Positions 46,987 through 60,714 of a stretch of DNA of 64,000 nucleotides are shown piece by piece. The position numbers were made by a program, and so were the translations under genes. The stretch's first letter is position 1. The number at the start of each line of letters is the position of its first letter. The stretch comes from Empedobacter sedimenti (GTDB lineage: Bacteria > Bacteroidota > Bacteroidia > Flavobacteriales > Weeksellaceae). Location: the NCBI RefSeq assembly GCF_030005555.1, contig NZ_JASCQG010000006.1:62001-126000 (forward strand), in the 5' to 3' direction. Below the pieces are notes generated by a model, which was not told where the DNA came from, made no database searches, and saw nothing but the letters and a program-made list of their open reading frames with translations.

Positions 46987-47381
46987 GGGGCTGACTGGTT
47001 TTGACAGCAGGGCCAATGGGTAAGTAAGCATGCAGTGATAGGTTGTGTACTCACTTTAATCAGGCACTTCAACTTTTTAACTGGCAACGAAGAGTACGCT
47101 TTAGCTGCATAATTCTGAATTTTAGTAAGAATACGCCACGTCTATACTAGGTATAGAAGCTGAATGTCCCTCAAAAGCCTTGACTTACGGCGTTTGATAC
47201 AGGGACACGGGAAAGTAAGAATAGGAACCTTAGTGCATCGGATAGGTTTCGAGATTTAAGATGATAAGCGGTTGACAGAGTGTTTATTCTCAGGATATCG
47301 TCGAAAATTAATAATAAACTAAGCATGTAGAAAGCTTATTTGTTGCTTGTTTGGACGCGGGTTCGAATCCCGCCAGCTCCA
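46987..47381 (+). ncRNA. ssrA: transfer-messenger RNA (tmRNA)
   Basis: The 5' end GGGGCTGACTGGTTTTGACAG pairs through GGGGCTG with CAGCTCC at 47374-47380. The T-arm CGCGGGTTCGAATCCCGC is intact. The resume reading frame at 47083-47112 encodes GNEEYALAA and a stop, so the tag appended to stalled proteins is A-GNEEYALAA. The discriminator A (47381) is followed by CAA, so the 3' CCA is not encoded. tmRNA with SmpB rescues stalled ribosomes. An element is integrated at its 3' end but regenerates the gene exactly. Confidence 0.95.
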
Positions 47382-47382
47382 C
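47368..47382 (+). repeat. left attachment repeat within ssrA 3' end (attL)
   Basis: TCCCGCCAGCTCCAC overlaps the T-arm and acceptor stem of tmRNA and is identical to 60556-60570. Confidence 0.9.
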
Positions 47383-47413
47383 AACTTTAAATGTTACTAG
47401 TTATGTAACCATT

Positions 47414-47446
47414 ATAAAACCTTCAATTTTAGGAGGTTTTATATTT
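47414..47446 (+). terminator. element-supplied terminator after ssrA
   Basis: An 8-bp stem (ATAAAACC with GGTTTTAT) around a 13-nt loop, followed by T-rich sequence, 33 bp past the tmRNA. It replaces the original ssrA terminator now at 60572. Confidence 0.65.
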
Positions 47447-47532: not shown

Positions 47533-48765
47533 ATGAATGTAACTTTCGTATTAGCAAAACCATCTTCAAACTTAGAAACGACAATAGAAATGGTAGTGAG
47601 ATGGGATTCGCAACAAATTAGAATAAGCTCTAAAAAGAAAATATTGCCAAAAAATTGGAATCCTTTAAAAATGAAAGTTAAGGACTCTAATTTTAATAAA
47701 ACTGGTCTAGAAATTAACTCTCATCTAGAGAAGATGAAATCATCAGCTACGGATGTATATATTTTTTTAACTAATGGGTTTGGAAGACCTCCGCTGAAAG
47801 AAGAATTTAAAGTGAAATTTAAGAATTATTTTTTTGGTGGTGGTAAAATTGATTCAAAACCTAAAATTACAACATTGGTAGAAGCATTCAATTTGTATAT
47901 CAAAACTAAAACGTATTTAAAAGAATCATCTATTCAAACGATCAATCAAACAAAGACAAATATTGTGAATTATGAACTTCTAAATAAAGAAATAGTTACA
48001 TTAGATAATTTTGATGTTAATATAAGGAATAGCCTTATTGATTTATTTTTTGAATTAGATTATAAAGGACCAACTATTTATCGTCGTTTAAAATATATAA
48101 GGACAGTTTTGAAGTTTGCTGAAGAATTAGGATATTCTGTACATCCTTACTATAAAGTTAATTCATTCTTAACTAAGGACGAGGAGTCTTATCAAATTGC
48201 TTTAACGGAAGAAGAGTTGAATGAGTTTATTAACCTAGATTTGAATTATGATAGTTCACTTGAATTAGTTCGAGATCAATTTTTAGCCTTAGTAATTACT
48301 GGACAGAGGTTTTCAGATTTAAATAAGATTACTTCTAATTATGTTGATGATGATGGATCACTTAAATTTATTCAAGAGAAAACCAAAATATCAGTTCATT
48401 TTCCGTTGATGAAAAATTTGAAACAAATTTTAGACAAATATCCTTTGGGTTGGCCAATTCGATATTCGAATCAAAAGTTTAATAAAAAACTACAAGCTAT
48501 AGCTAAGAAATGTAGTTTGTTAGAGCGTCCATTAATAAATAATGAGAATATTAAGAGAATGGATAAGATTTCATCACATACAGCACGTCGATCTTTTGTT
48601 ACCATTTATTATTCTAAAGGGGTTCCATTAGATGTTATTATGCTAGCAACTGGTCATAAACAAGAGAAGACGGTGAAAGGTTACATTAAAATGAATAAAA
48701 ACCAAGAAGCTAGATTGCTGGAAATGGTATTAAAAGATGTAGAAATTAATATATCAAACGAATGA
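47533..48765 (+). CDS. tyrosine-type site-specific integrase
   Basis: The 410-aa protein has an N-terminal arm-binding-like domain (about 1-90, beginning MNVTFVLAKPSSNLET), a SAM-like core-binding domain (about 115-220) and a catalytic domain. Catalytic residues visible: Arg in VITGQRFSDL, HTARR (His and second Arg), GH in LATGHKQ and the nucleophile Tyr in KGYIKM. It integrates and excises the element at the ssrA 3' end. Its position next to attL, transcribed away from it, is standard. It overlaps the next gene by 4 bp. Confidence 0.95.
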   Translation: MNVTFVLAKPSSNLETTIEMVVRWDSQQIRISSKKKILPKNWNPLKMKVKDSNFNKTGLEINSHLEKMKSSATDVYIFLTNGFGRPPLKEEFKVKFKNYFFGGGKIDSKPKITTLVEAFNLYIKTKTYLKESSIQTINQTKTNIVNYELLNKEIVTLDNFDVNIRNSLIDLFFELDYKGPTIYRRLKYIRTVLKFAEELGYSVHPYYKVNSFLTKDEESYQIALTEEELNEFINLDLNYDSSLELVRDQFLALVITGQRFSDLNKITSNYVDDDGSLKFIQEKTKISVHFPLMKNLKQILDKYPLGWPIRYSNQKFNKKLQAIAKKCSLLERPLINNENIKRMDKISSHTARRSFVTIYYSKGVPLDVIMLATGHKQEKTVKGYIKMNKNQEARLLEMVLKDVEINISNE

Positions 48766-49472
48766 AATTTTTAGAATATTGGGAGGTTTTTGATGGATTA
48801 TTAGAAATATCAATAGAAAAGGACTTTAAAGATTCAGTTGATTATACAGAGCTATTCAAAAGATTAATTACTTCAGGGGAGGAAGAAAGTATTGATTGGG
48901 ACTTTAATCATTTTGAAACGTTTGAATTACTTTTAAATAACAAATTAAAGGGTAAAGATCTCATCGAAGAAAAAAATTTGATCCAGGCGGAGCAAGAAAA
49001 AATACTTGATAGATTATCTTATGATGGTGGATCTTTTCAAACGATTATTTTTAACGATCTCTTCTTTGATTGGATTGATACAAAAATGGTTGATAATGTA
49101 AAGCTTCAGCAATATAAGAAACTTCAGTATTTGAAGGGGAAATTAGATCGAATCGATGCAGCAGCTAACGATCCAAACAATTTTGACGCTGATGATCCGA
49201 AATTTGATTCTATCGCTAAAAAAATAATTGCATTGTACAAGCTGGGTATTTTAGATCATTTGGATAATAATAATAAATTAGTGGTATCGACAAATGCGAA
49301 AGCTAGGATTGTTAGTTTAATAACAGGAGATAATGTTACTACAATTCAATCGGCATTAAATGCGATGGTTAAAGGAAATATTGGTAAAAATAATCCACTA
49401 AACTCCACTAAGAGTTGTAATGAAGTAGACGTAATTCTTAACAAAATCGGAGCTAAAATAATTAAGGAATGA
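48762..49472 (+). CDS. hypothetical integrase-linked protein
   Basis: I do not recognise this 236-aa protein. It is acidic at the N-terminus and helical, with YKKLQYLKGKLDRIDAAAND in the middle. The C-terminal part (GDNVTTIQSALNAMVKGN then KNNPLNS) resembles a domain seen in unnamed Bacteroidota proteins near integrases, where 'TTIQ..lN.m...KNNPyn' recurs; that is recollection, not a search. It starts in an ATGA overlap with the integrase stop, so it is co-expressed and may affect integration or excision. Confidence 0.75.
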   Translation: MKFLEYWEVFDGLLEISIEKDFKDSVDYTELFKRLITSGEEESIDWDFNHFETFELLLNNKLKGKDLIEEKNLIQAEQEKILDRLSYDGGSFQTIIFNDLFFDWIDTKMVDNVKLQQYKKLQYLKGKLDRIDAAANDPNNFDADDPKFDSIAKKIIALYKLGILDHLDNNNKLVVSTNAKARIVSLITGDNVTTIQSALNAMVKGNIGKNNPLNSTKSCNEVDVILNKIGAKIIKE

Positions 49473-49531: not shown

Positions 49532-49807
49532 ATGAACAACTTAATTATGAACGAGGCTTTCGTTCAACAAATCGTAAAAGAACAAGTAGCAAAAGAACTT
49601 GAAAAGAATAAACAAGAACTAAAGGAAAAGGATACCTACTTAACAAAAGAAGAAGCTGCATCAATGTTTGGTATTTCAGTTTCTTCCGTAGATAATTACA
49701 AACGTAATGGTCTAATCCCGTATACCAAAATCGGTCGAGCAGTACGTTTTACTCTTCACGATTTGAAGAACTCAATAATTCTCCAAAAGAAAGGTAAAAG
49801 TAGATAA
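49532..49807 (+). CDS. excisionase-like HTH protein (MerR/HTH_17 type)
   Basis: The 91-aa protein has an N-terminal helical segment rich in Gln, Lys and Glu, and a winged-helix excisionase fold: LTKEEAASMFGISVSSVDNY then KRNGLIPYTKIGRAVRF (about 37-72). Such proteins act as recombination directionality factors or repressors. A 59-bp gap separates it from the upstream gene, and a 490-bp non-coding region follows, which may hold its binding sites. Confidence 0.85.
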   Translation: MNNLIMNEAFVQQIVKEQVAKELEKNKQELKEKDTYLTKEEAASMFGISVSSVDNYKRNGLIPYTKIGRAVRFTLHDLKNSIILQKKGKSR

Positions 49808-50298: not shown

Positions 50299-50949
50299 AT
50301 GTGGAATACAATAGAATTTTATAGGAGAACTAATATAATAGATGTCTCGTATAGAACACTTATGAGACAAATTGGAAAAATATATGGTGTAAATGATGTA
50401 GTAAAAAAGAAAGTAATCAATGGATCAGAAACTTGGTTAATCAATTACAAATTCATTCCAGAGTATTTTCAAAGAAAAAGAAAGTTAAAATCTAATATTG
50501 ATGATTTTAACCAGAAGATGGAAAAGAAGGTAAGAAAAGTAAAATCCACTTTTATTGTACCAGTTGACATTGATAAATATAACATTGAAATGAGTATAAA
50601 CTTCAAAGACGATTACGATAAGGATTATTATGAATATATAGTAAAGGATTTATTTCTGCGATCCTGTTTTGATATGTTTTATGTAATAGAGGAAGATTCT
50701 ATTGGTTTTAATCATTTGCACGTTGGAATAAAAGGTGATGATACGCAAGAACTCAAATTAATTTTACGACATACGTATGATTACCTTCATTTGCATGATT
50801 ACGATGGTGATAAAAACAAAATATTTTCAAAACAAACAAATGTTGCCGTTATCCGTAATCACAATGCTTACCTGGACTACCTGAAGAAAGGATCGACAAT
50901 AGAATTCTTATTAAAGAAGAATAATTTAGAATTATTTGTAGATGGATAA
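50299..50949 (+). CDS. putative HUH-type Rep/nickase-like protein
   Basis: The 216-aa protein is not a recognised family. An N-terminal region (about 1-75) looks like a DNA-binding segment with a very basic stretch near 60-80. It then shows STFIVPVDI, possible motif 1; NHLHVGIKG with His139-x-His141, like HUH motif 2; and AYLDYLKKGS with Tyr194-x-x-Lys197, like motif 3 (YxxKxG) of single-tyrosine Rep proteins. Order and spacing fit a rolling-circle initiator or relaxase-like fold. It follows a repeat-rich region that could be its origin. The downstream gene overlaps by 8 bp. Confidence 0.5.
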   Translation: MWNTIEFYRRTNIIDVSYRTLMRQIGKIYGVNDVVKKKVINGSETWLINYKFIPEYFQRKRKLKSNIDDFNQKMEKKVRKVKSTFIVPVDIDKYNIEMSINFKDDYDKDYYEYIVKDLFLRSCFDMFYVIEEDSIGFNHLHVGIKGDDTQELKLILRHTYDYLHLHDYDGDKNKIFSKQTNVAVIRNHNAYLDYLKKGSTIEFLLKKNNLELFVDG

Positions 50950-51414
50950 TATATATAAATTAGTTGAGGTAATTACCCAACAAAGTATTGCTGAAGATTG
51001 GTTAGAAGCAAAGAAAGAATGGGTTCCGTTTGACTTTTATTGTGATAATTCTGGTGTAATAGGTTGTTCGTATAGTAAGTTACCAACAATGAATATATAT
51101 GTGTGATAAAGCATAAGTTGTCGGGAAAAACATTGATTGTAGGAAACTGCTGCGTCACAAAATTCATGGATTTGCCTATAAGTAACAAGATCTTTACATC
51201 AGGAAGTAAGTTGAGAAAAGATATTTCAAAAAGTCTTAATGGCGATGTTATTCATCGTTTAAAGGAAATCAGTATCATAAATCATTACGAGTATCAATTT
51301 TATTTGGACCGTAAGAACAAAAAGAAATTGACGGATAAGCAAAAAGTATTCAAAATTAAAACTAACCAAAAATTCTTGAATTGGTTAACAAGTTGTAAAA
51401 AAACCACATCATAA
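50942..51414 (+). pseudogene. frameshifted gene with CxxC-less zinc-like C-terminus
   Basis: The 5' part (50942-51106) encodes MDNIYKLVEVITQQSIAEDW... ending in TGA. The 3' part continues in another frame as ICVIKHKLSGKTLIVGNCCV and runs to TAA at 51412-51414. A one-base deletion near CCAACAA (51083-51089), or an extra AT unit in the run at 51092-51100, restores one frame. The joined product (about 157 aa) has Cys residues (YCDNSG, GCSY, ICVIK, GNCC) suggesting a metal-binding protein; similar 'C.i.nkl.g....vGNCCv..F' proteins occur in Bacteroidota elements. It may be dead or phase-variable. Confidence 0.65.
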
Positions 51415-51430
51415 TTGATGTGGTTTTTTT
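51401..51430 (+). terminator. intrinsic terminator before the defence operon
   Basis: An 11-bp perfect stem (AAACCACATCA with TGATGTGGTTT), 4-nt loop, then a T tract to 51430. It insulates the downstream three-gene operon from the mobility genes. Confidence 0.88.
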
Positions 51431-51466
51431 GTATATTCATAACCGAATTACATTATTGATTATAAT

Positions 51467-54304
51467 ATGATCAACCAATACCAAGCTAAATATTACGCAT
51501 ACGAATTGTCTAAAAAAGCAACATCAGATAGTCCTGAAAAGTTCGGAGCTACCTTGATGGATGCAAAAGTAGAATTAAATCCTCACCAAGTTGAAGCTGC
51601 TTTGTTTGCTTTTAAATCTCCTTATTCTAAAGGTGCTATTCTTGCAGACGAGGTTGGTTTAGGTAAAACCATTGAAGCAGGAATTTTATTAAGCCAAAAG
51701 TGGGCAGAAGGGAAAAAGAAAATTTTAATTATTTGTCCTTCCTCTCTACGTAAACAATGGGTAAACGAATTAGAAGATAAATTTTATTTAAAAGCTGAAG
51801 TATTAGATAATATATCTTACAATAAAAAAGCTAAATCTGGAATTAAAAATCCATTTGATAATGGCCATACAATAAAAATTTGTAGTTATCAATTTGCTCG
51901 AAAATGCGCGGAAGAAATACAATTGACTTCGTGGGATTTGGTTGTATTAGACGAAGCACACTATTTAAGAAATGCATACAAATATGGTAACGTGACTGCT
52001 CAAACCATTCAAAATGCAATCCGTGATTATAAAAAAGTGTTACTTACTGCCACACCTTTGCAAAATAGATTAGATGAATTGTATGGTTTAGTTTCTTTTA
52101 TCGATCCTGAGATTTTTGGTGACATTAAAAGTTTTAGACGCAATTATATTTTAGAATCTGGTAACCGAGATATTGAAGGGTTAAAAAACAGGTTAAATTC
52201 AATTGTACATCGGACGTTACGTCGTGATGTTAAGGAATTCATCAATTATAGAGAACGTATCCCAATTACTCAACAATTTATTCCTACAGAAAAAGAACAG
52301 GAGTTATATGAAAAGGTTTTAGAATATCTAAGACAAGAAAGAACCTATGCTTTTCCGCCAGCTCAAAAACATTTGATGCAGTCAGTAATTTTTAAATTAC
52401 TAGGTTCATCTTCTTTCGCAATTAGTAGAACACTAGAATCTTTATTAAAAAGGTTAAGAATACTTTTAGAATCATCTAAAGTAGTAGAAGATGATTTGTA
52501 TGAAATGTTTCTAGAAGAATATGAAAATCTAGATGATGAATTTGATGAAGGTGAAATTATTGATGATGATGATTTTAATGAAATTACCTTAGATGATAAA
52601 ATTGCAATAGAAGAGGAGATCAAGCAGCTAGAAGAATTTTTAATTCTTGCGAATAGCATACAACATAATGAAAAGGGTGAAAAATTATTAATTGCTTTAG
52701 AACAAGGCTTTACAAAATTGAATGAGTTAGGTGCAAAGCAAAAAGCATTGATATTTACAGAATCAACTAGAACACAGCAATATTTATTAGAGCGTTTATC
52801 GAAAGAAAAATATGCAGGAAGAATTTTAATCTTTAATGGGAATAATTCTGATCCTATATCAAATCAAATTTATCGTGATTGGATTGCAGATGATAAAAAT
52901 GTAGGAAAAGTAACGGGTTCTAAAGCCGTTGATATCAGACAAGCCTTAGTAGATGCTTTCAGAAGTGATCAATATGATATAATGATTGCGACAGAAGCTG
53001 CTGCTGAGGGGATCAATTTACAGTTCTGTAGTATGATTGTCAATTACGATTTACCTTGGAATCCACAGCGTGTAGAACAACGCATTGGCCGTTGTCATCG
53101 CTATGGACAAGAGTATGATGTGGTGGTTGTAAATTTCATTAATGCAGCGAATGCAGTAGAAACTAGAGTATACGAATTACTAGAAAATAAATTCCGTTTA
53201 TTCGATGGTGTTTTTGGTTCTTCAGATGAGGTTTTAGGTTCAATTGAAAGTGGTGTTGATTTTGAAAAACGAATCATTGAAGTTTACAAAATGTGTCGAA
53301 CAAAAGAAGAGATAGAAAACTATTTCAACCAGCTGCAAAGTGAATTCGAAGACCAAATCAATCAAAAAGTTAAAGACGTACAATCTAAATTGTTTGATCA
53401 TTTTGAAGCAAGTGTAATTGATAAACTACGTACAACTTATTCGGACACGATTGTGTTTATAGAGAAATTTGAAAAATGGTTATGGGAGTTAACCCAGTTT
53501 TACCTTCAAAACAGAGCACAATTTATATTTGATGATTATACCTTCATTTTAGATAATGGTGAAAAATATACATTAAATAAAAAACGTGAAGATGCTAAAC
53601 GATTTTTAATAAATGGATCAATTGCTCAAAAAATTATCATCCAGGGTAAAAAGGAAAAAACACCTTCTGCTCATCTTTCTTTTGATTGGAGTAAAGTAAA
53701 TGTTACTCATACAGATGTTAGTAATCTAAAATCTAAGTCAGGCGTATTAAGAGTTAGTAATTTAGAGGTTTCTTCTGAAATTGAATCACATTCCGTATTA
53801 CTTTTTTCTGGTATTACTACCGAAAACGAGGTTTTAAATGACGATATTTGCCGCTTTATTTTAGGGCTTAATTCTACAATAAATGATACTTTTAAAGGTG
53901 ATTTAGATGCAATTGAAAAATTTCATGCTAAAGTTAAAGCAGAAAGGCTAAAGTATCTCGAAGATACAGATGCCGCTTTAATGCAACGCGAATTTAAAAA
54001 ATTCCACAATTGGGCTGATGATAAGATTTTTGAATTAGAATCCGAATTAAAAGAGGCTAAGAAAGAAGAAAAAGAAATTGATAAAGCTGCGATGCAAGAA
54101 GGATTATCAGGTGCGGAAGCTTTAGCGATGCAGGAAAAATTAGCAAAGGCAAAGAAAAAAGTATCACGCCTGAAAAGAGAAATGTTTGATCGTGAAGAGG
54201 AAATTGAAGCTGAACGCGATCAAATGATTGCTGAAGCGAAGAATAAATTAAACAGAACAATAACAGAAGAAGAAGTGTTCACCATTTCTTTTGAATTGAT
54301 ATAA
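51467..54304 (+). CDS. SNF2/RapA-type helicase-like ATPase of a restriction operon
   Basis: This 945-aa protein is a superfamily 2 motor of the SNF2 branch. Q-motif-like LNPHQVEAALFA precedes Walker A DEVGLGKT (61-68). DEAH lies at 162-165, motif III is LLTATPLQNRLDELYGL, motif V is ATEAAAEGINLQ and motif VI is QRIGRCHRYGQ (538-548). An acidic insert (about 345-390) lies between lobes, and the last 90 residues are a long charged coiled coil. It resembles DrmD-like and RapA-like helicases in defence loci. It precedes the methyltransferase by 6 bp. Likely role: DNA translocation or remodelling for restriction. Confidence 0.88.
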   Translation: MINQYQAKYYAYELSKKATSDSPEKFGATLMDAKVELNPHQVEAALFAFKSPYSKGAILADEVGLGKTIEAGILLSQKWAEGKKKILIICPSSLRKQWVNELEDKFYLKAEVLDNISYNKKAKSGIKNPFDNGHTIKICSYQFARKCAEEIQLTSWDLVVLDEAHYLRNAYKYGNVTAQTIQNAIRDYKKVLLTATPLQNRLDELYGLVSFIDPEIFGDIKSFRRNYILESGNRDIEGLKNRLNSIVHRTLRRDVKEFINYRERIPITQQFIPTEKEQELYEKVLEYLRQERTYAFPPAQKHLMQSVIFKLLGSSSFAISRTLESLLKRLRILLESSKVVEDDLYEMFLEEYENLDDEFDEGEIIDDDDFNEITLDDKIAIEEEIKQLEEFLILANSIQHNEKGEKLLIALEQGFTKLNELGAKQKALIFTESTRTQQYLLERLSKEKYAGRILIFNGNNSDPISNQIYRDWIADDKNVGKVTGSKAVDIRQALVDAFRSDQYDIMIATEAAAEGINLQFCSMIVNYDLPWNPQRVEQRIGRCHRYGQEYDVVVVNFINAANAVETRVYELLENKFRLFDGVFGSSDEVLGSIESGVDFEKRIIEVYKMCRTKEEIENYFNQLQSEFEDQINQKVKDVQSKLFDHFEASVIDKLRTTYSDTIVFIEKFEKWLWELTQFYLQNRAQFIFDDYTFILDNGEKYTLNKKREDAKRFLINGSIAQKIIIQGKKEKTPSAHLSFDWSKVNVTHTDVSNLKSKSGVLRVSNLEVSSEIESHSVLLFSGITTENEVLNDDICRFILGLNSTINDTFKGDLDAIEKFHAKVKAERLKYLEDTDAALMQREFKKFHNWADDKIFELESELKEAKKEEKEIDKAAMQEGLSGAEALAMQEKLAKAKKKVSRLKREMFDREEEIEAERDQMIAEAKNKLNRTITEEEVFTISFELI

Positions 54305-54310
54305 TAAAAC

Positions 54311-57277
54311 ATGAGTAACTATAATAAACTTCAAGACGTTTTAAAAGAAATATTTGAGATGGATAAGGCGGATTTAGATTTTGGAATCTACCGCATTATG
54401 AATCAAAAACGTGATCAGGTAATGGATTTTATAGATCGTAAATTACCGAAAGATATTAAAGACATATTAGCGCAAACACAATCAAAAGATTCTACTTCTA
54501 TTCAAGCAGAATTAGATAAAGCGATTAAATCTGCGCAAGATTTAGGTGTGGAGCCAGATACTTTACCTAAAGTAATCGAGTTAAAAGCGCAACTGAATAA
54601 TGCGATTGATACCAATGCTTTAGAGCAGGAAGTATTCTCACATTTGGCGAATTTCTTTAAGCGTTATTACAAAGACGGCGATTTTATTTCGTTACGTCGT
54701 TACAAGAAAGACGTGTATGCCATTCCTTATGAAGGGGAAGAAGTAAAACTACATTGGGCAAACCATGACCAATATTATATCAAAACATCGGAATATTTAA
54801 AGAATTACAGCTTTAAATTAAAAGATGGAAAATCGGTTCATTTCCAATTAAAGGAAGCTTCTACGGAACAAAACAACAATAAAGCACAAGGTGATCAAGA
54901 GCGTCGTTTTGCTATTTATGAGGAGCAACCTGTGGAAGTAATCGATGGACAATTATACATCAACTTTACGTATGAACCGCACAAGAAAACGGTAAAACAA
55001 GCTGACCTAGAAGCGAAGGCAATTGAAGTGATTCAAAACAATATTCCTGCTGAATTTGCTTTAGCATTTGACAAAGCGCCAACAGAGAAAAATAAGAATC
55101 GTACCATTGTAGAGAAACATCTGAACGATTTCATTTCTCGTAACAGTTTCGATTATTTCATCCATAAAGATTTAGGTGGATTCTTACGTCGTGAGTTAGA
55201 TTTCTACATCAAAAATGAAGTTTTATACATCGACGATATCAATACCGAAAATCCAGCCTATTTTACAGCGCAGTTATCCAAGATAAAAGCGTTGAAAACC
55301 GTTGCTTCTAAGATTATTACCTTCTTAGCGCAGATAGAGGATTTCCAAAAGAAATTATGGTTAAAGAAAAAGTTTGTGATCAGTACCCATTACTGCATCA
55401 CCTTAGACCGTATTCCTGAAAAATATTATGCCGAAATTGTGGCCAACCAAGCACAATTAGACGAATGGAAAGAATTGTTTGACATTGTCATTCCGAACGG
55501 TAGTGAGGAATCTCTACGCAACGAACCTTATTTGGTTCTGGATACCAAACATTTCTCCGAAGAATTCAAAGATAAATTATTAGCCGAATTCGACAATTTA
55601 GACGAAGAAACTAATGGGCTATTAATCAATTCTGAGAATTTCCAAGCATTGAATGTATTGCAAGAAAAATATCAGGAGCGTATTTCATTAAATTATATAG
55701 ATCCACCTTATAATACTTCTGCTTCAGAGATATTATATTTAAATGGATTTAAAAGTGCTTCATGGATGTCATTAATAGAAAATAGAGAGTTATTATCAAA
55801 AAAATTATTATCGAATTCAGCTGTTAAAATTGTAGCTATAGATGATACAGAATTTAATAATATTTCTTTTATCCTTCGTGAAGTTCATTCTGATAAAGAT
55901 ATTAATAATGTCATTGTAAATCATCATCCTGCAGGGGCTGGATTAACAGGGACAAATATTTCAACTACTCATGAATATGCGATATTTTTGACGCCCAAAA
56001 ATAAAAAGGTATTATTTGGTGAAAAGAAAGAAGCTGGTATTGGGAAAATTGGATTTATTAGAACCGGAACTGCTGAAAGTAACTTAAGAATTGGAAGACC
56101 TAATAGTTTTTATGCTGTCTTGGTTGATAGTAATTATAATGTTGTAGGTATAGAAGTTCCACCCAAAATCAATGAATCTTACCCTGAAGAAAACACAGTT
56201 GATGGTTTAATAAGAATTTATCCTAAAAGTAAGGATGGAACAGAAAGAGTTTGGAGAAGATCATATGAATCTTGTTTGAAAGAGATTGAAAACAATAATA
56301 TTATTTGTTCTCCAAATTTAAGTCTAAGTTTAATCTCTGATAATGAAGAATCTTCAAAACCTATTTTTAGTAACTGGACTGACACGAAATATAATGCTGG
56401 TGTTCATGGAACTAATGTGTTAACTAATATAATTGGTAAACCACTATTTAGCTATCCCAAGTCAATTTACAATTTGTATGATTGTATTTATTACTCTACA
56501 AATCTAAATAGTTTAATTTTAGACTACTTCGCTGGATCAGGAACTACAGGTCACGCAACTATAAAACTAAATCGTGAAGATGGTGGTAATCGTAAATACA
56601 TCTTGGTAGAAATGGGTACATATTTTAATACAGTAACCAAACCACGTATTCAAAAAGTCATCTACACCGACAACTGGAAAAACGGTAAACCACAAGATAA
56701 AGCGGGTATTTCGCAACTATTCAAATACCAAGTCTTAGAATCGTACGAAGATGCCTTAAACAATTTGCAGTTACCGAATAAAACCAATGCCGCTTTATTA
56801 AACTTTGAGGAGCAAGCGCAAGAAGAGTACCTCTTAAACTATATGTTGGATGTAGAAACACAAGATCATTTGTTCAATGTTCAAATGTTCCGCAATCCAT
56901 TCAATTACCAATTAAAGGTGACAGAGAATAACGAGTTGGTACCTACGAAAGTAGATTTAGTAGAAACCTTCAATTATTTAATTGGCTTGTATGTAGAACG
57001 TGTACAACGTGTAGGCGATATCAAGTTTGTAGAAGGTAAAACCAGAGAGGGCATCAAAACTTTAGTGATTTGGCGCAATCTGGAAACCACCAGCAATGAA
57101 GAAACCGCACAACGTTTCCGTAAAATTTACGACAGCGTACGTTCTTCGGAGTTTGACCAAATCTACATCAACGGCGATCATCATTTCGACAATATGCGCA
57201 CTGGTGAAGATAATTTCAAAGTAAAACTAATCGAAGAAACCTTCTTCAAGCAAATGTTTAATATTTCGGAATTGTAA
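54311..57277 (+). CDS. large beta-class adenine-N6 DNA methyltransferase (type III Mod-like)
   Basis: The 988-aa protein has catalytic motif IV DPPY at 464-467 (NYIDPPYNT) upstream of the SAM-binding motif I DYFAGSGTTG at 738-747, the beta-class order of type III Mod enzymes. About 270 residues between them should include the target-recognition region. A 440-residue N-terminal part (LDFGIYRIMNQKRDQVMDF at the start) exceeds normal Mod length. It modifies host DNA to protect it from the adjacent Res protein. The central segment (about 55690-56590) is more AT-rich than its flanks, suggesting module exchange. Confidence 0.9.
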   Translation: MSNYNKLQDVLKEIFEMDKADLDFGIYRIMNQKRDQVMDFIDRKLPKDIKDILAQTQSKDSTSIQAELDKAIKSAQDLGVEPDTLPKVIELKAQLNNAIDTNALEQEVFSHLANFFKRYYKDGDFISLRRYKKDVYAIPYEGEEVKLHWANHDQYYIKTSEYLKNYSFKLKDGKSVHFQLKEASTEQNNNKAQGDQERRFAIYEEQPVEVIDGQLYINFTYEPHKKTVKQADLEAKAIEVIQNNIPAEFALAFDKAPTEKNKNRTIVEKHLNDFISRNSFDYFIHKDLGGFLRRELDFYIKNEVLYIDDINTENPAYFTAQLSKIKALKTVASKIITFLAQIEDFQKKLWLKKKFVISTHYCITLDRIPEKYYAEIVANQAQLDEWKELFDIVIPNGSEESLRNEPYLVLDTKHFSEEFKDKLLAEFDNLDEETNGLLINSENFQALNVLQEKYQERISLNYIDPPYNTSASEILYLNGFKSASWMSLIENRELLSKKLLSNSAVKIVAIDDTEFNNISFILREVHSDKDINNVIVNHHPAGAGLTGTNISTTHEYAIFLTPKNKKVLFGEKKEAGIGKIGFIRTGTAESNLRIGRPNSFYAVLVDSNYNVVGIEVPPKINESYPEENTVDGLIRIYPKSKDGTERVWRRSYESCLKEIENNNIICSPNLSLSLISDNEESSKPIFSNWTDTKYNAGVHGTNVLTNIIGKPLFSYPKSIYNLYDCIYYSTNLNSLILDYFAGSGTTGHATIKLNREDGGNRKYILVEMGTYFNTVTKPRIQKVIYTDNWKNGKPQDKAGISQLFKYQVLESYEDALNNLQLPNKTNAALLNFEEQAQEEYLLNYMLDVETQDHLFNVQMFRNPFNYQLKVTENNELVPTKVDLVETFNYLIGLYVERVQRVGDIKFVEGKTREGIKTLVIWRNLETTSNEETAQRFRKIYDSVRSSEFDQIYINGDHHFDNMRTGEDNFKVKLIEETFFKQMFNISEL

Positions 57278-57283
57278 TAAGAT

Positions 57284-60200
57284 ATGGCAAACTTTCACGA
57301 CAAGCTCGTACTCAATAAGTATATGCTATCTCTTTTCGGAATTGATAGCATTGGTAAAAAAATCATCGGTAAAAAAGGTGTAGAAATTTTTACCGATTTA
57401 AAGCTTTCTTCTAACGAAGGATATACCGAAGAAGGGAATACCAAATATTTGCAAGCTTTAATTGCGCATATGTACAATAACAAACATATGACGGCTACGA
57501 TGCTGCAAACCTATGACGAAAATATTGTTCGTTATACCAAACAAATTTCTGAAAAACGTGAGGAACAGATTACTTGGAAGTATTTCCAATACCTTTCTTT
57601 ATTGTTCACAGAAGTGTACTTGGATAAGTATTTTAGTAACAAAGTAAAGTTGTTGGCAGATGTTAATGAATATGTGAAAGAATTCAATCTGAAACAAGCT
57701 GAAGCCAATGCAGGAAAGAAAAAAGATAAAGATACTTTTATTGCACAGCCATTTACTTTAGAAAACCTAAACAAATTAGCTTTTTGGAATGCAACAGGTT
57801 CGGGTAAAACCTTATTGATGCACATCAACATCAAGCAATATTTGCATTATGCTAATCAATACAACCAAGGGCACCAAAACAAAGTATTGTTAATTACGCC
57901 AAATGAAGGATTAACCAAGCAACATTTAGCGGAATTTAAGCTTTCTGATATTAGAGCGAATAACTTCTCTAAGAACGATTCTGGTATGTTTTCGGGTAAA
58001 CAAGTAGAAATCTTAGAGATCACTAAATTAGCTGAAAACAGTGGTGATAAAACAGTTGCAGTGGAAAGTTTCGAAACCGACAACTTAGTTTTGATTGATG
58101 AAGGTCACGGAGGAATGTCTGGTGACTCATGGAAAAAATTTAGAGATCAATTGAGCTTAACAGGTTTTGCTTTTGAATATTCGGCAACATTTGGACAAGC
58201 AATTAATGCAGCTTCGGGAGCGAAGAAAACCGAGTTTACACAAGAATATGCTAAAAGTATTTTGTTTGATTATTCGTACAAATATTTTTATGAAGATGGA
58301 TATGGTAAAGATTACCGAATTCTAAATTTAAAAGAAGATAATACCGCTTATCAGCAATTATATTTAACAGCGAATTTAGTTTCCTTCTTTCAACAACAAT
58401 TGATTTTTAAGGAACAGAAAACTTCGTTGAGGGATTTTTTATTGCATAAGCCTTTATGGATTTTTGTAGGTGGCAAAGTAAATGCAGTTCGTAAAGAAGG
58501 AGGAAAAGATGTTTCGGATGTTTTGGAAATTATTTATTTCCTGACCGAATTCTTAAAGAATCCAACGGTTTCTATTCAGAATATAGAAGCTGTCATCACT
58601 GATAAAGCAGGATTGGTAGACAAAAATGGGTATTCTATTTTTGAAACATCATTTTCCTACATCAAAGAACAAAATCTAGATGCTACAACCATTTTCAATT
58701 TGATTAATGAATTGGTATTCAATAACACCACAATTGGTGCTAATCTGTATGTAGATAATCTGAAAGGTGCAGATGGTGAGTTAGGTTTACGAGTAGGAGA
58801 TACAGATAAATATTTTGGTGTTATCAATGTAGGTGATGAGAAAAAACTATATGAGTTAGCGGTTGCCAATAATGTGTTGGGTACAGAACGTGATTTCTCT
58901 GATTCTTTATTTAAAAAGATTAACGAAGATACTTCATCCATTAATTTATTAATTGGCTCTAAAAAGTTCTCAGAAGGTTGGTCATCTTGGCGTGTATCGT
59001 CGATGGGATTAATGAACGTAGGAAAAAGCGAAGGTTCGCAAATTATTCAGTTATTTGGTCGAGGTGTTCGTTTAAAAGGGTATAACTTCTCATTAAAGCG
59101 TTCAACAGGTTTAGATGATTATCAAAAACCTGATAATATCAAAGCGTTGAAAAAATACCTAAGACATTTAGAAACACTTCAGATTTTCGGTGTAAAAGCC
59201 GACTATATGGAGAAATTCAAAGAATTCTTAGAAGAAGAAGGTTTGCCAACGAACGATTCGGCTTGGATAACGATAAAAGTTCCAACGATTCAGAATGACA
59301 TTGTACAACAAAATAGACTAAAACTAATTGCTGTTAAAGATTCTGAAAACTTTAAACAGAAGGTTCTTGTATCCTTAGTGTACAATGCATCCATTTTTGA
59401 TGGGAAAATAGTAGAGTTAGATTGGTATCCAAAAATTGATGTATTAGAGAAGAAAAGCTCTGGTAATGCAGTAAACAAAAACAGTAGCTTTTTAAGCTCA
59501 AAGCATATATCATTTTTAAATTGGAATGCTATTTACTTAGCCCTTCAGAATTTTAAAGCGGATAAAGGTTATCACAACCTTAAAATTGAATTAGATCAAT
59601 TACAAGCCATCTTAAATGAAGTGTCTTGGTATAATTTATTAATACCTGCGCACAAATTAGAATTTAAGCAATTTAGTAATGTACAGATTTGGCAAGAATT
59701 AGCCATTACCTTACTAAAGAAATACATTGAGCAGTTTTATTTATTCTATAAGAATGAATTCAATTCAGACCACGTAGAAGCGATTCAATTAAGTGGTACG
59801 GATGATAATTTCCTTCTAGAATATGACTTCAGATTAAATACGGAAGAAGAAATAGAATACTATCAAAATAAAATTGAACAGCTGAAGACTGAGGTAATGG
59901 ATCCAGCTTTTGATAATATTCAAATAGGAACTGAAGTATCTGCTTTTGATAATTTATTACATTTATATAAACCTTTAGTTTATGTAGGTAAAGGATATAA
60001 AGAAAAATTACAAGTAAGTCCTATTCCTTTAGATGCTTCTGAAAAACAGTTCTTAGATGATTTAATTACTTATATAGGAACTAAACCTGAACATTTAGAA
60101 GGTAAAGAAGTTCATGTACTGAGAAATCAAAGTAAAAAGGGATTAGGTTTCTTTACAGATGGTAATAATTTTTATCCTGATTTTATTTTATGGATTGTAC

Positions 60201-60481
60201 AAGGTGATAAACAAACTATTAAGTTCATTGATCCGAAAGGTATTCGAAATTCGAAAGGTATTAATGATCCAAAGATTCAATTTTTCAAAGTCTTAAAGGA
60301 TAAGATTCAACCACAAGTTGAAAATGCTGGAATAGAATTAGATTCTTATATTGTATCCAATACATCCTACTTAGAAGTAAATTGGAAGGATAATTTAAGT
60401 ATTGAAGAATTCAATAATAACCATGTGTACTTTCAGAAAGAGAATGTTGGTGAGTATATTAAAAATATTTTAATTAATTAG
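57284..60481 (+). CDS. type III restriction enzyme Res-like helicase-nuclease
   Basis: The 1065-aa protein has Walker A NATGSGKTLL (Lys175), motif II DEGH at 272-275 (DEAH variant), and SEGWSSWRVSSMGLM with QLFGRGVRLKG as motifs V and VI of Res subunits. The C-terminus carries a PD-D/ExK nuclease core: YPDFILWI (Asp966), then IDPKG with Asp983 and Lys985. It probably translocates on DNA and cuts when the site is unmodified. It begins 6 bp after the methyltransferase and ends 75 bp before the attR repeat. Confidence 0.92.
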   Translation: MANFHDKLVLNKYMLSLFGIDSIGKKIIGKKGVEIFTDLKLSSNEGYTEEGNTKYLQALIAHMYNNKHMTATMLQTYDENIVRYTKQISEKREEQITWKYFQYLSLLFTEVYLDKYFSNKVKLLADVNEYVKEFNLKQAEANAGKKKDKDTFIAQPFTLENLNKLAFWNATGSGKTLLMHINIKQYLHYANQYNQGHQNKVLLITPNEGLTKQHLAEFKLSDIRANNFSKNDSGMFSGKQVEILEITKLAENSGDKTVAVESFETDNLVLIDEGHGGMSGDSWKKFRDQLSLTGFAFEYSATFGQAINAASGAKKTEFTQEYAKSILFDYSYKYFYEDGYGKDYRILNLKEDNTAYQQLYLTANLVSFFQQQLIFKEQKTSLRDFLLHKPLWIFVGGKVNAVRKEGGKDVSDVLEIIYFLTEFLKNPTVSIQNIEAVITDKAGLVDKNGYSIFETSFSYIKEQNLDATTIFNLINELVFNNTTIGANLYVDNLKGADGELGLRVGDTDKYFGVINVGDEKKLYELAVANNVLGTERDFSDSLFKKINEDTSSINLLIGSKKFSEGWSSWRVSSMGLMNVGKSEGSQIIQLFGRGVRLKGYNFSLKRSTGLDDYQKPDNIKALKKYLRHLETLQIFGVKADYMEKFKEFLEEEGLPTNDSAWITIKVPTIQNDIVQQNRLKLIAVKDSENFKQKVLVSLVYNASIFDGKIVELDWYPKIDVLEKKSSGNAVNKNSSFLSSKHISFLNWNAIYLALQNFKADKGYHNLKIELDQLQAILNEVSWYNLLIPAHKLEFKQFSNVQIWQELAITLLKKYIEQFYLFYKNEFNSDHVEAIQLSGTDDNFLLEYDFRLNTEEEIEYYQNKIEQLKTEVMDPAFDNIQIGTEVSAFDNLLHLYKPLVYVGKGYKEKLQVSPIPLDASEKQFLDDLITYIGTKPEHLEGKEVHVLRNQSKKGLGFFTDGNNFYPDFILWIVQGDKQTIKFIDPKGIRNSKGINDPKIQFFKVLKDKIQPQVENAGIELDSYIVSNTSYLEVNWKDNLSIEEFNNNHVYFQKENVGEYIKNILIN

Positions 60482-60555: not shown

Positions 60556-60570
60556 TCCCGCCAGCTCCAC
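60556..60570 (+). repeat. right attachment repeat (attR)
   Basis: TCCCGCCAGCTCCAC is identical to the tmRNA 3' end at 47368-47382. The preceding bases (GTAAG) do not continue the tmRNA T-arm, so this is a partial copy and not a second gene. Confidence 0.9.
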
Positions 60571-60571
60571 T

Positions 60572-60610
60572 AAATTCCTTTAAAGTGAAATTTAAAGGAA
60601 TTTTTATTTT
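60572..60610 (+). terminator. displaced original ssrA terminator
   Basis: A 13-bp perfect stem (AAATTCCTTTAAA with TTTAAAGGAATTT), 6-nt loop, then T-rich sequence, starting 2 bp after attR. In the unoccupied chromosome it would directly follow the tmRNA gene. Confidence 0.8.
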
Positions 60611-60714
60611 TAATTGAAACTTAATCATCTTTGACACTTATCATTTTAAGAATAATAAAAACTACCTTATCTTAGTAGAAGAATTAACACTTTACTTTTA
60701 AGACAATTAAATTT

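Follow-up and report, generated by a model that had tools for sequence, protein, structure and literature searches.

In textbooks, type III restriction-modification (R-M) enzymes stand for restriction by sliding on DNA after the spending of a few ATP molecules, and a conserved second motor in such a system is unexpected and raises the question of which obstacle, or which step, needs it. A locus of Empedobacter sedimenti poses this question. Within a stretch of 64,000 nucleotides (hereafter the window, whose positions are used throughout; NCBI RefSeq assembly GCF_030005555.1, contig NZ_JASCQG010000006.1, positions 62,001 to 126,000 of the forward strand), a gene for a SNF2-type ATPase stands directly ahead of genes for a methyltransferase (Mod) and a helicase-nuclease (Res) that resemble the two subunits of a type III enzyme. 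This triad had been proposed, from the DNA letters and their translations (the original prediction), to form a restriction-like system with an added motor, and our analysis supports that proposal, within the limit that Mod and Res often occur without the SNF2 gene. We read the triad as one R-M cassette in which a type III-like Mod-Res pair works with a dedicated RapA-like SNF2 motor, and we place the probability of this reading at about 0.7; that the triad is an R-M cassette and that the SNF2 protein is its dedicated partner are both likely. Judging from its genes, the cassette is probably directed against phages.

The three proteins of the cassette

The three genes lie on the forward strand, are separated by 6 bp at each junction in the list of open reading frames (ORFs) and have no other gene embedded between them. 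They encode a SNF2 ATPase of 945 amino acids (aa) (51467-54304), a large beta-class N6/N4 methyltransferase of 988 aa, Mod (54311-57277), and a superfamily 2 (SF2) ATPase of 1065 aa with a C-terminal PD-DxK motif, Res (57284-60481). Coordinates, lengths and strand are those of the original prediction, and its assignments of a SNF2/RapA-type ATPase and of a type III Res-like helicase with a PD-DxK nuclease hold as well. Pfam assigns SNF2-rel_dom and Helicase_C to the SNF2 protein, N6_N4_Mtase (PF01555) to Mod and ResIII to Res, and the best PADLOC models are DrmD (674 bits), MTase_III (816 bits) and REase_III (652 bits), respectively. All expected motifs are intact: DEVGLGKT, DEAH, TATPLQN and QRIGRCHRYGQ in SNF2; DPPY (464-467) followed by DYFAGSG (738-744) in Mod, an order that we take to be that of the beta class; TGSGKT and DEGH in Res and, by motif inspection and alignment, the nuclease motif at residues 965-985 (60176-60238), running from PD (965-966) to DPK (983-985). 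Alignments of 59 SNF2, 32 Mod and 19 Res proteins show almost no variation in the catalytic motifs; PD and D/E of the nuclease are kept in 19/19 sequences of Res alignment A2 and the lysine in 17/19.

The closest solved relative of the SNF2 protein by sequence is RapA. Its predicted structure (predicted local distance difference test, pLDDT, 84) resembles many SNF2 cores, and among the 50 matches listed only the four RapA entries align with it from end to end, residues 1-945 lying on RapA residues 122-966 with about 700 residues aligned and Z scores of 21-22. Nothing in the model corresponds to the RapA residues before 122. The N-terminal domain of RapA (1-109) contacts the zinc-binding domain of the polymerase and is proposed to be autoinhibitory (PMC8666675; papers given by PubMed Central number are cited from excerpts). 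A RapA-like role in recycling RNA polymerase is unlikely for a protein modelled without the residues before 122. The C-terminus is modelled as two long helices and then a strand, and a like arrangement is described for RapA and BrxHII (PMC12839542). On plasmids of Klebsiella (L203:5566-5811) and Salmonella (L205:6232-6432), a small helix-turn-helix (HTH) gene overlaps the start of the SNF2 gene, like a control protein for the operon; none stands directly before the SNF2 gene of the window.

A Mod profile compared with solved structures retrieves 6k0w, Mbo45V Mod and EcoP15I Mod first, and the predicted Mod model (pLDDT 79) agrees in fold with 6k0w (Z 27.6), EcoP15I Mod (26.4) and Mbo45V Mod (25.8). 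No sequence match to the solved Mods was seen N-terminal of about residue 450, and the fold alignments start near residue 145. The 24 PADLOC models that match Mod are all of the MTase_III, MTase_II or orphan kinds. Judged from their sequences, Mod and Res are a type III-like pair.

A comparison with close relatives suggests which protein reads the DNA. In another genome of the genus (G003) the triad sits away from the transfer-messenger RNA (tmRNA) gene that harbours the window's copy, and its SNF2 and Res proteins share 94% identity with those of the window, while the two Mod proteins share only 18-44% per 50 residues over positions 451-750, between DPPY and FAGSG, and 66-100% elsewhere. This target-recognition region (about residues 451-750; 55661-56560) is diverged in the same manner in 17 of 18 close pairs (Res more than 75% identical; the pairs share members and hence are not independent), with a drop of at least 23 points, the exception being L106/L164; in these pairs Mod is 77-94% identical outside the region and SNF2 stays within 9 points of Res. 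Because the recognition region diverges while SNF2 and Res do not, Mod would supply the specificity and SNF2 would not read the site. In the G003 triad (L036), the gap between SNF2 and Mod also contains a gene for a Y1-type transposase (L036:8286-9692), and between its Mod and Res genes lie three small genes (L036:12798-13337), one of them of the HTH_3 family and the other two without a Pfam family, that the window copy does not have.

Linkage of SNF2 to Mod and Res

How tightly the SNF2 gene is tied to its neighbours was judged by scanning a collection of species genomes with a profile of SNF2 alone and reading the best 80 of 561 relatives. Sixty-three of these score at least 880, and 45 of the 63 have at least 7 kb downstream and are evaluable, both limits having been chosen after the loci were seen; they leave aside 18 loci with less than 7 kb downstream (3 with Mod and Res, 7 with Mod only, 8 with neither) and 17 loci that score below 880. 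Mod and Res lie beside SNF2 on the same strand at 42 of the 45 evaluable loci, 17 with a long Mod and 25 with a short Mod (about 520-680 aa, stop to stop). The three unlinked loci are L128 (neither gene), L149 (Mod only) and L162 (a 69-aa Mod piece). Going by the titles of their records, the linked loci span about ten phyla, among them Bacteroidota, Pseudomonadota, Bacillota, Planctomycetota, Verrucomicrobiota, Lentisphaerota, Actinomycetota and Synergistota, with Deltaproteobacteria, Patescibacteria and Omnitrophota as further groups. As the set is this common and is also found on plasmids, including those of Klebsiella, Salmonella and E. coli, it matters for gene transfer and phage sensitivity.

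A separate SNF2 search in 395 genomes of the window's own phylum, Bacteroidota, gave 33 rows from 29 genomes, and Mod and Res adjoin SNF2 at all 10 further evaluable loci. The 33 rows divide into 19 that were read (10 evaluable, 7 with short flanks, of which 4 have Mod only and 3 neither gene, and 2 low-scoring), the window itself, 5 triads already known and 8 unread fragments; six loci that came from the Res searches and contributed to the SNF2 profile (L036, L037, L038, L043, L054 and L055) are counted in neither the 45 nor the 10. Merely sporadic linkage, the outcome that the original prediction had set against itself, was not seen. A chance neighbourhood is rejected as well, since SNF2 proteins below 880 in the same scan are linked in 3/10 cases, two of the three being frame-split genes, versus 42/45 above that score.

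SNF2 is usually the first gene of the operon, and where gene order varies the linkage stays, SNF2 lying 3' of Res in Conchiformibius, L121 and L142. The distances among SNF2 proteins covary with those among their partners: Mantel r for SNF2 versus Res and Mod is 0.58 and 0.51 in 24 long-Mod sets and 0.59 and 0.51 in 33 short-Mod sets, with none of 2000 permutations as high and host relatedness not controlled.

Other genes, often known defence genes, come and go inside these loci. Among 60 full triads (SNF2 score at least 880), extra ORFs of at least 110 aa occur in the SNF2-Mod gap of 31 and in the Mod-Res gap of 21, a gene of L121 being counted in both gaps; 78 of 81 such ORFs were analysed after one duplicate and two Mod pieces had been dropped. 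Their Pfam families include AAA_15 (12), which we take to be OLD-like, AIPR (7), RhuM (5), YhcG (5), DUF4276 (5), Fic (4) and Abi_2 (2), and PADLOC models matched are mad3 (14), PtuA (12), AriA (12) and HEC-01A (9). Unlike SNF2, these genes vary from locus to locus. The embedding of one defence system in another has been described for Hma (PMC12988326, PMC12255303).

Mod-Res pairs without SNF2

Several results weigh against a dedicated motor on a type III-like pair, among them that the pair often does without it. Long-Mod Res occurs in 28/395 genomes of the window's phylum (the window's included) and in G003; 25 of these stretches were read, 8 that end too near the genes were left out, and 11 of the 17 judged loci have no SNF2 gene, against 6 that do. 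Full-length matches to short-Mod Res have SNF2 nearby on the same contig in 6/10 cases and lack it there in 4/10. On plasmids, 18/27 records with long-Mod Res carry SNF2 at a distance of up to about 10 kb, and 14 of these records are enterobacterial with almost equal scores; the other 9/27, Priestia and haloarchaea among them, do not carry it there.

On a midpoint-rooted tree of 35 long-Mod Res proteins, whose SNF2-minus rows come from the window's phylum only and whose SNF2-plus rows come from all phyla, so that SNF2-minus relatives elsewhere are under-sampled, the presence or absence of SNF2 needs 3 changes versus a shuffled mean of 9.6. One SNF2-minus group of six is seen, together with two SNF2-minus groups amid SNF2-bearing branches that can be read as losses. 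As these two groups lie among SNF2-bearing branches, the motor seems dispensable at times.

The same direction is taken by the L128 locus, where SNF2 has neither Mod nor Res in its 22.9 kb, by the 105 loci, in which no SNF2-Mod or SNF2-Res fusion was found, and by the Mantel correlations, which are higher between Mod and Res (0.90 for long-Mod and 0.94 for short-Mod sets) than between SNF2 and Res, as would fit a looser partner. As to Res itself, its profile retrieves no chain of a solved structure at E 0.001, and a simple PD-x-(D/E)xK pattern, sought in the C-terminal 230 residues, is matched by 20/24 long-Mod and 7/33 short-Mod proteins and failed by 4/24 and 26/33. Since SNF2 is mostly linked and Mod-Res is often found without SNF2, we suggest that SNF2 depends on the type III-like pair more than the reverse.

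A possible mechanism and its rivals

What might the second motor do? It is tempting to propose that Mod would use its exchangeable recognition region to read a DNA site and would methylate adenine on host DNA, and that the Mod-Res complex would hold unmethylated invading DNA, which the PD-DxK nuclease of Res would then cut. SNF2 would then most likely act on the Mod-Res complex on double-stranded DNA, presumably in contact with it, and push aside obstacles such as a transcribing polymerase or phage DNA-binding proteins; as an alternative step it might remodel the Mod-Res complex until the cutting state is reached. A helper on the Mod-Res-DNA complex would fit a protein that has no polymerase-contacting domain, goes with two kinds of Mod-Res and is blind to specificity. 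Clearing of obstacles is the best of several mechanisms that we considered. It is possible, and we say this only tentatively, that the loci form a distinct and very widespread two-motor class of ATP-dependent restriction, in which a type III-kind recognition complex and a RapA-derived remodeller are both required for restriction and the slots between the genes receive changing effectors (OLD/AAA, AIPR, YhcG, Fic, RhuM, Abi) that the core might control.

The main rival to the clearing mechanism turns it round, with SNF2 protecting the host: the ATPase would strip Mod-Res off host DNA (at forks, repair tracts or newly entered cassette DNA) before it is cut, as a form of restriction alleviation. 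SNF2/Mot1-type ATPases strip proteins from DNA, a safety protein could well be made first given that SNF2 usually opens the operon, and a safety device could be optional as SNF2 is; against this, Mod-Res pairs without SNF2 persist and safety cannot always depend on it, and we hold the proposal to be doubtful. That SNF2 is a mere passenger, an independent protein (perhaps a defence or repair ATPase) that co-travels with an ordinary type III R-M system as defence genes cluster, strikes us as rather more unlikely. Such a passenger would account for the frequency of Mod-Res without SNF2, for the other defence genes that do sit inside these loci, for the solitary SNF2 of L128 and for the missing fusions, but it fits poorly with a linkage of 42/45 and 10/10 that holds for two kinds of Mod-Res, with embedded genes that differ by locus whereas SNF2 stays, and with SNF2 distances that covary with those of Mod and Res.

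Still less probable, in our opinion, is a blocking system in the manner of DISARM or ARMADA, in which SNF2 and the methyltransferase would sense the invader and Res would track along DNA and not cut by type III rules. DrmD is indeed the best PADLOC model of SNF2, and ARMADA joins a RapA-like helicase, an adenine methyltransferase and other helicases in a system that needs all four of its genes (PMC12458937). The methyltransferase of the window, however, is of the type III Mod kind, with neither PglX nor DrmMI among its 24 model matches, the nuclease residues of Res are conserved as given above for alignment A2, and the genome has no MZB protein. We keep to a type III-like cassette with a dedicated SNF2 motor.

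The integrative element in ssrA

The insertion site of the 13.2-kb element that carries the triad as its cargo is ssrA, the tmRNA gene (46987-47382, forward strand, as are all features of this section; found by ARAGORN), whose 3' end forms the left attachment (att) site. The last 15 bases of the tmRNA (47368-47382, left att core) recur as a direct repeat at 60556-60570 (right att core). Inside the element, a terminator-like hairpin (47413-47443) lies directly 3' of the tmRNA and is followed by a tyrosine integrase (47533-48765; Pfam PF00589), a 236-aa protein without a family whose gene overlaps the integrase stop (48762-49472), a 91-aa HTH_17 or excisionase-like protein (49532-49807) and a 216-aa protein without assigned function (50299-50949). 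A long terminator-like hairpin (51396-51431; an inverted repeat with fold z -6.4) sits 35 bp 5' of the SNF2 gene, between the cassette and the upstream genes; it is not among the hairpins reported by the terminator consensus scan. Within the reach of the family searches, no cargo other than the triad can be recognised, the rest being the integrase, the HTH/excisionase-like protein and small family-less proteins. The original prediction had described a set insulated by a terminator and alone on an integrative element, and the tmRNA target, the repeats, the integrase and the hairpin agree with this description. Just past the right repeat, an inverted repeat and then a T-rich stretch (60571-60615) are perhaps the displaced terminator of the tmRNA.

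The tmRNA gene and the gene 3' of the right repeat are both present in 14/14 genomes of the genus (the window's own counted). In two genomes they are nearly adjacent, a further sign that the window holds an integrated element; the distance is 211 bp in G001 and 77 bp in G007, where the downstream gene is on the opposite strand. In seven (G000, G002, G003, G004, G006, G008 and G012) they are separated by 4 to 18 kb, and the repeat occurs a second time in all of these except G012; in the remaining five they are on separate contigs or further apart. The ssrA gene looks like an integration hotspot in the genus. A sister element in G008 has the integrase (82% identical), the HTH protein (71%) and the 216-aa protein (74%) in common with the window's, and the 236-aa gene has no counterpart there. 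DNA similarity between the two ends at 50979 and returns at 60473, and the G008 slot holds a MmeI-like type IIG enzyme, a KAP NTPase, a helicase, a T5orf172 protein and two family-less proteins. Because the related element has a different restriction-type cassette at this place, the triad can be regarded as the occupant of a cargo slot. The G008 element (L240:3504-12828) and another ssrA element in G002 (L241:8323-15929) carry a related gene set, with identities of 48% for the MmeI-like type IIG enzyme, 62% for the DEAD/ResIII helicase and 41% for the T5orf172-type protein; L240 additionally has the KAP NTPase and L241 an AbiH protein. By its genes this looks like another multi-gene restriction-type set.

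Comparison with known systems

The nearest named relatives are the type III R-M enzymes EcoP15I and Mbo45V, with which the cassette shares adjacent Mod and Res genes, the fold and motif order of Mod, a variable recognition region between DPPY and FxGxG, and the SF2 and PD-DxK motifs of Res. It differs from them in the added conserved SNF2 gene and in a Mod of 988 aa with an unmatched N-terminal part. Type III enzymes methylate one strand of an asymmetric site and require two inverted sites, with ATP, for cutting. The long-range diffusion of EcoP15I depends on ATP, and cleavage takes place at inverted sites (PMC4490356). No named SNF2-Mod-Res system was found among the papers listed by searches of open-licence PubMed Central, and subscription papers or REBASE may hold a name; the cargo of a Cronobacter element includes, in the excerpted account, a type III REase, a Mod methyltransferase and a SNF2 helicase, not presented as a three-gene system (PMC12757443). 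The original prediction had suspected that similar loci are filed generically, and three annotated plasmid loci fit, with products called 'SNF2-related protein', either 'DNA methyltransferase' or 'site-specific DNA-methyltransferase', and 'DEAD/DEAH box helicase family protein'. The order on Klebsiella pAP855, typed as conjugative, is HTH, SNF2-related protein, DNA methyltransferase, DEAD/DEAH box helicase, and that on a Salmonella plasmid is SNF2, insertion sequence, Abi, hypothetical protein, Mod, Res.

Class 1 DISARM, which we take to consist of DrmD, DrmMI and DrmABC, likewise has a RapA-like SNF2 protein, DrmD, beside an adenine methyltransferase, but that methyltransferase is DrmMI and the one here is a type III Mod. 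The SNF2 protein reaches 667 bits with the NCBIfam model DrmD_b (NF038318), under the cut-off of 950. Among the PADLOC matches listed for seven proteins, six of them on the element (the integrase and the 236-aa protein excluded), there is no DrmB or DrmC, and the sole DrmA match is SNF2 itself, of whose 53 matching families 25 are listed. The MZB domain (PF09369), presumably linked to DrmB/YprA, is absent from the whole genome, the control being positive in 8/14. We reject DISARM membership on these grounds, in line with the original prediction. The PADLOC DrmD model (PDLC02619) is nevertheless the best model, at 652-699 bits, for all four SNF2 proteins scanned (window, L092, L095 and the Klebsiella plasmid), so that such proteins could be mistaken for DISARM, and a DrmD call may point to a type III locus.

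Hma is also a three-gene set with a helicase and a methylase and with other systems embedded (PMC8565338, PMC12255303), but it has an m5C methylase, HmaB, and an ATPase, HmaC (PMC8565338), where the window has an N6_N4_Mtase; SNF2 reaches only 180 bits with HmaA, neither HmaB nor HmaC is among the matches listed, and membership is rejected. BrxHII of type 3 BREX has a Swi2/Snf2 core and then a RapA-like C-terminal region as SNF2 does (PMC12839542), whereas the SNF2 model begins at the helicase region, with no Tudor domain ahead of it. Membership of BREX is rejected, as no BrxC, PglZ or DUF499 ATPase is among the matches listed for the scanned element proteins, the rest of the genome not having been searched. 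In ARMADA, a RapA/BrxHII-like helicase goes with a PglX-like methyltransferase and with a YprA-like helicase that bears a Vsr nuclease, and deletion of any of the four genes abolishes protection (PMC12458937). Both sets unite a RapA-like helicase, an adenine methyltransferase and a second SF2 helicase with a nuclease, and both reside on elements in tRNA or tmRNA genes, but Mod and Res stand here in place of the PglX-like methyltransferase and the YprA-Vsr helicase. We reject ARMADA membership because none of the 24 models matched by Mod is PglX and Res matches REase_III only. The cassette of the window adds a further case to a theme that runs through DISARM, ARMADA and type 3 BREX, the pairing of a RapA-like motor with an adenine methyltransferase.

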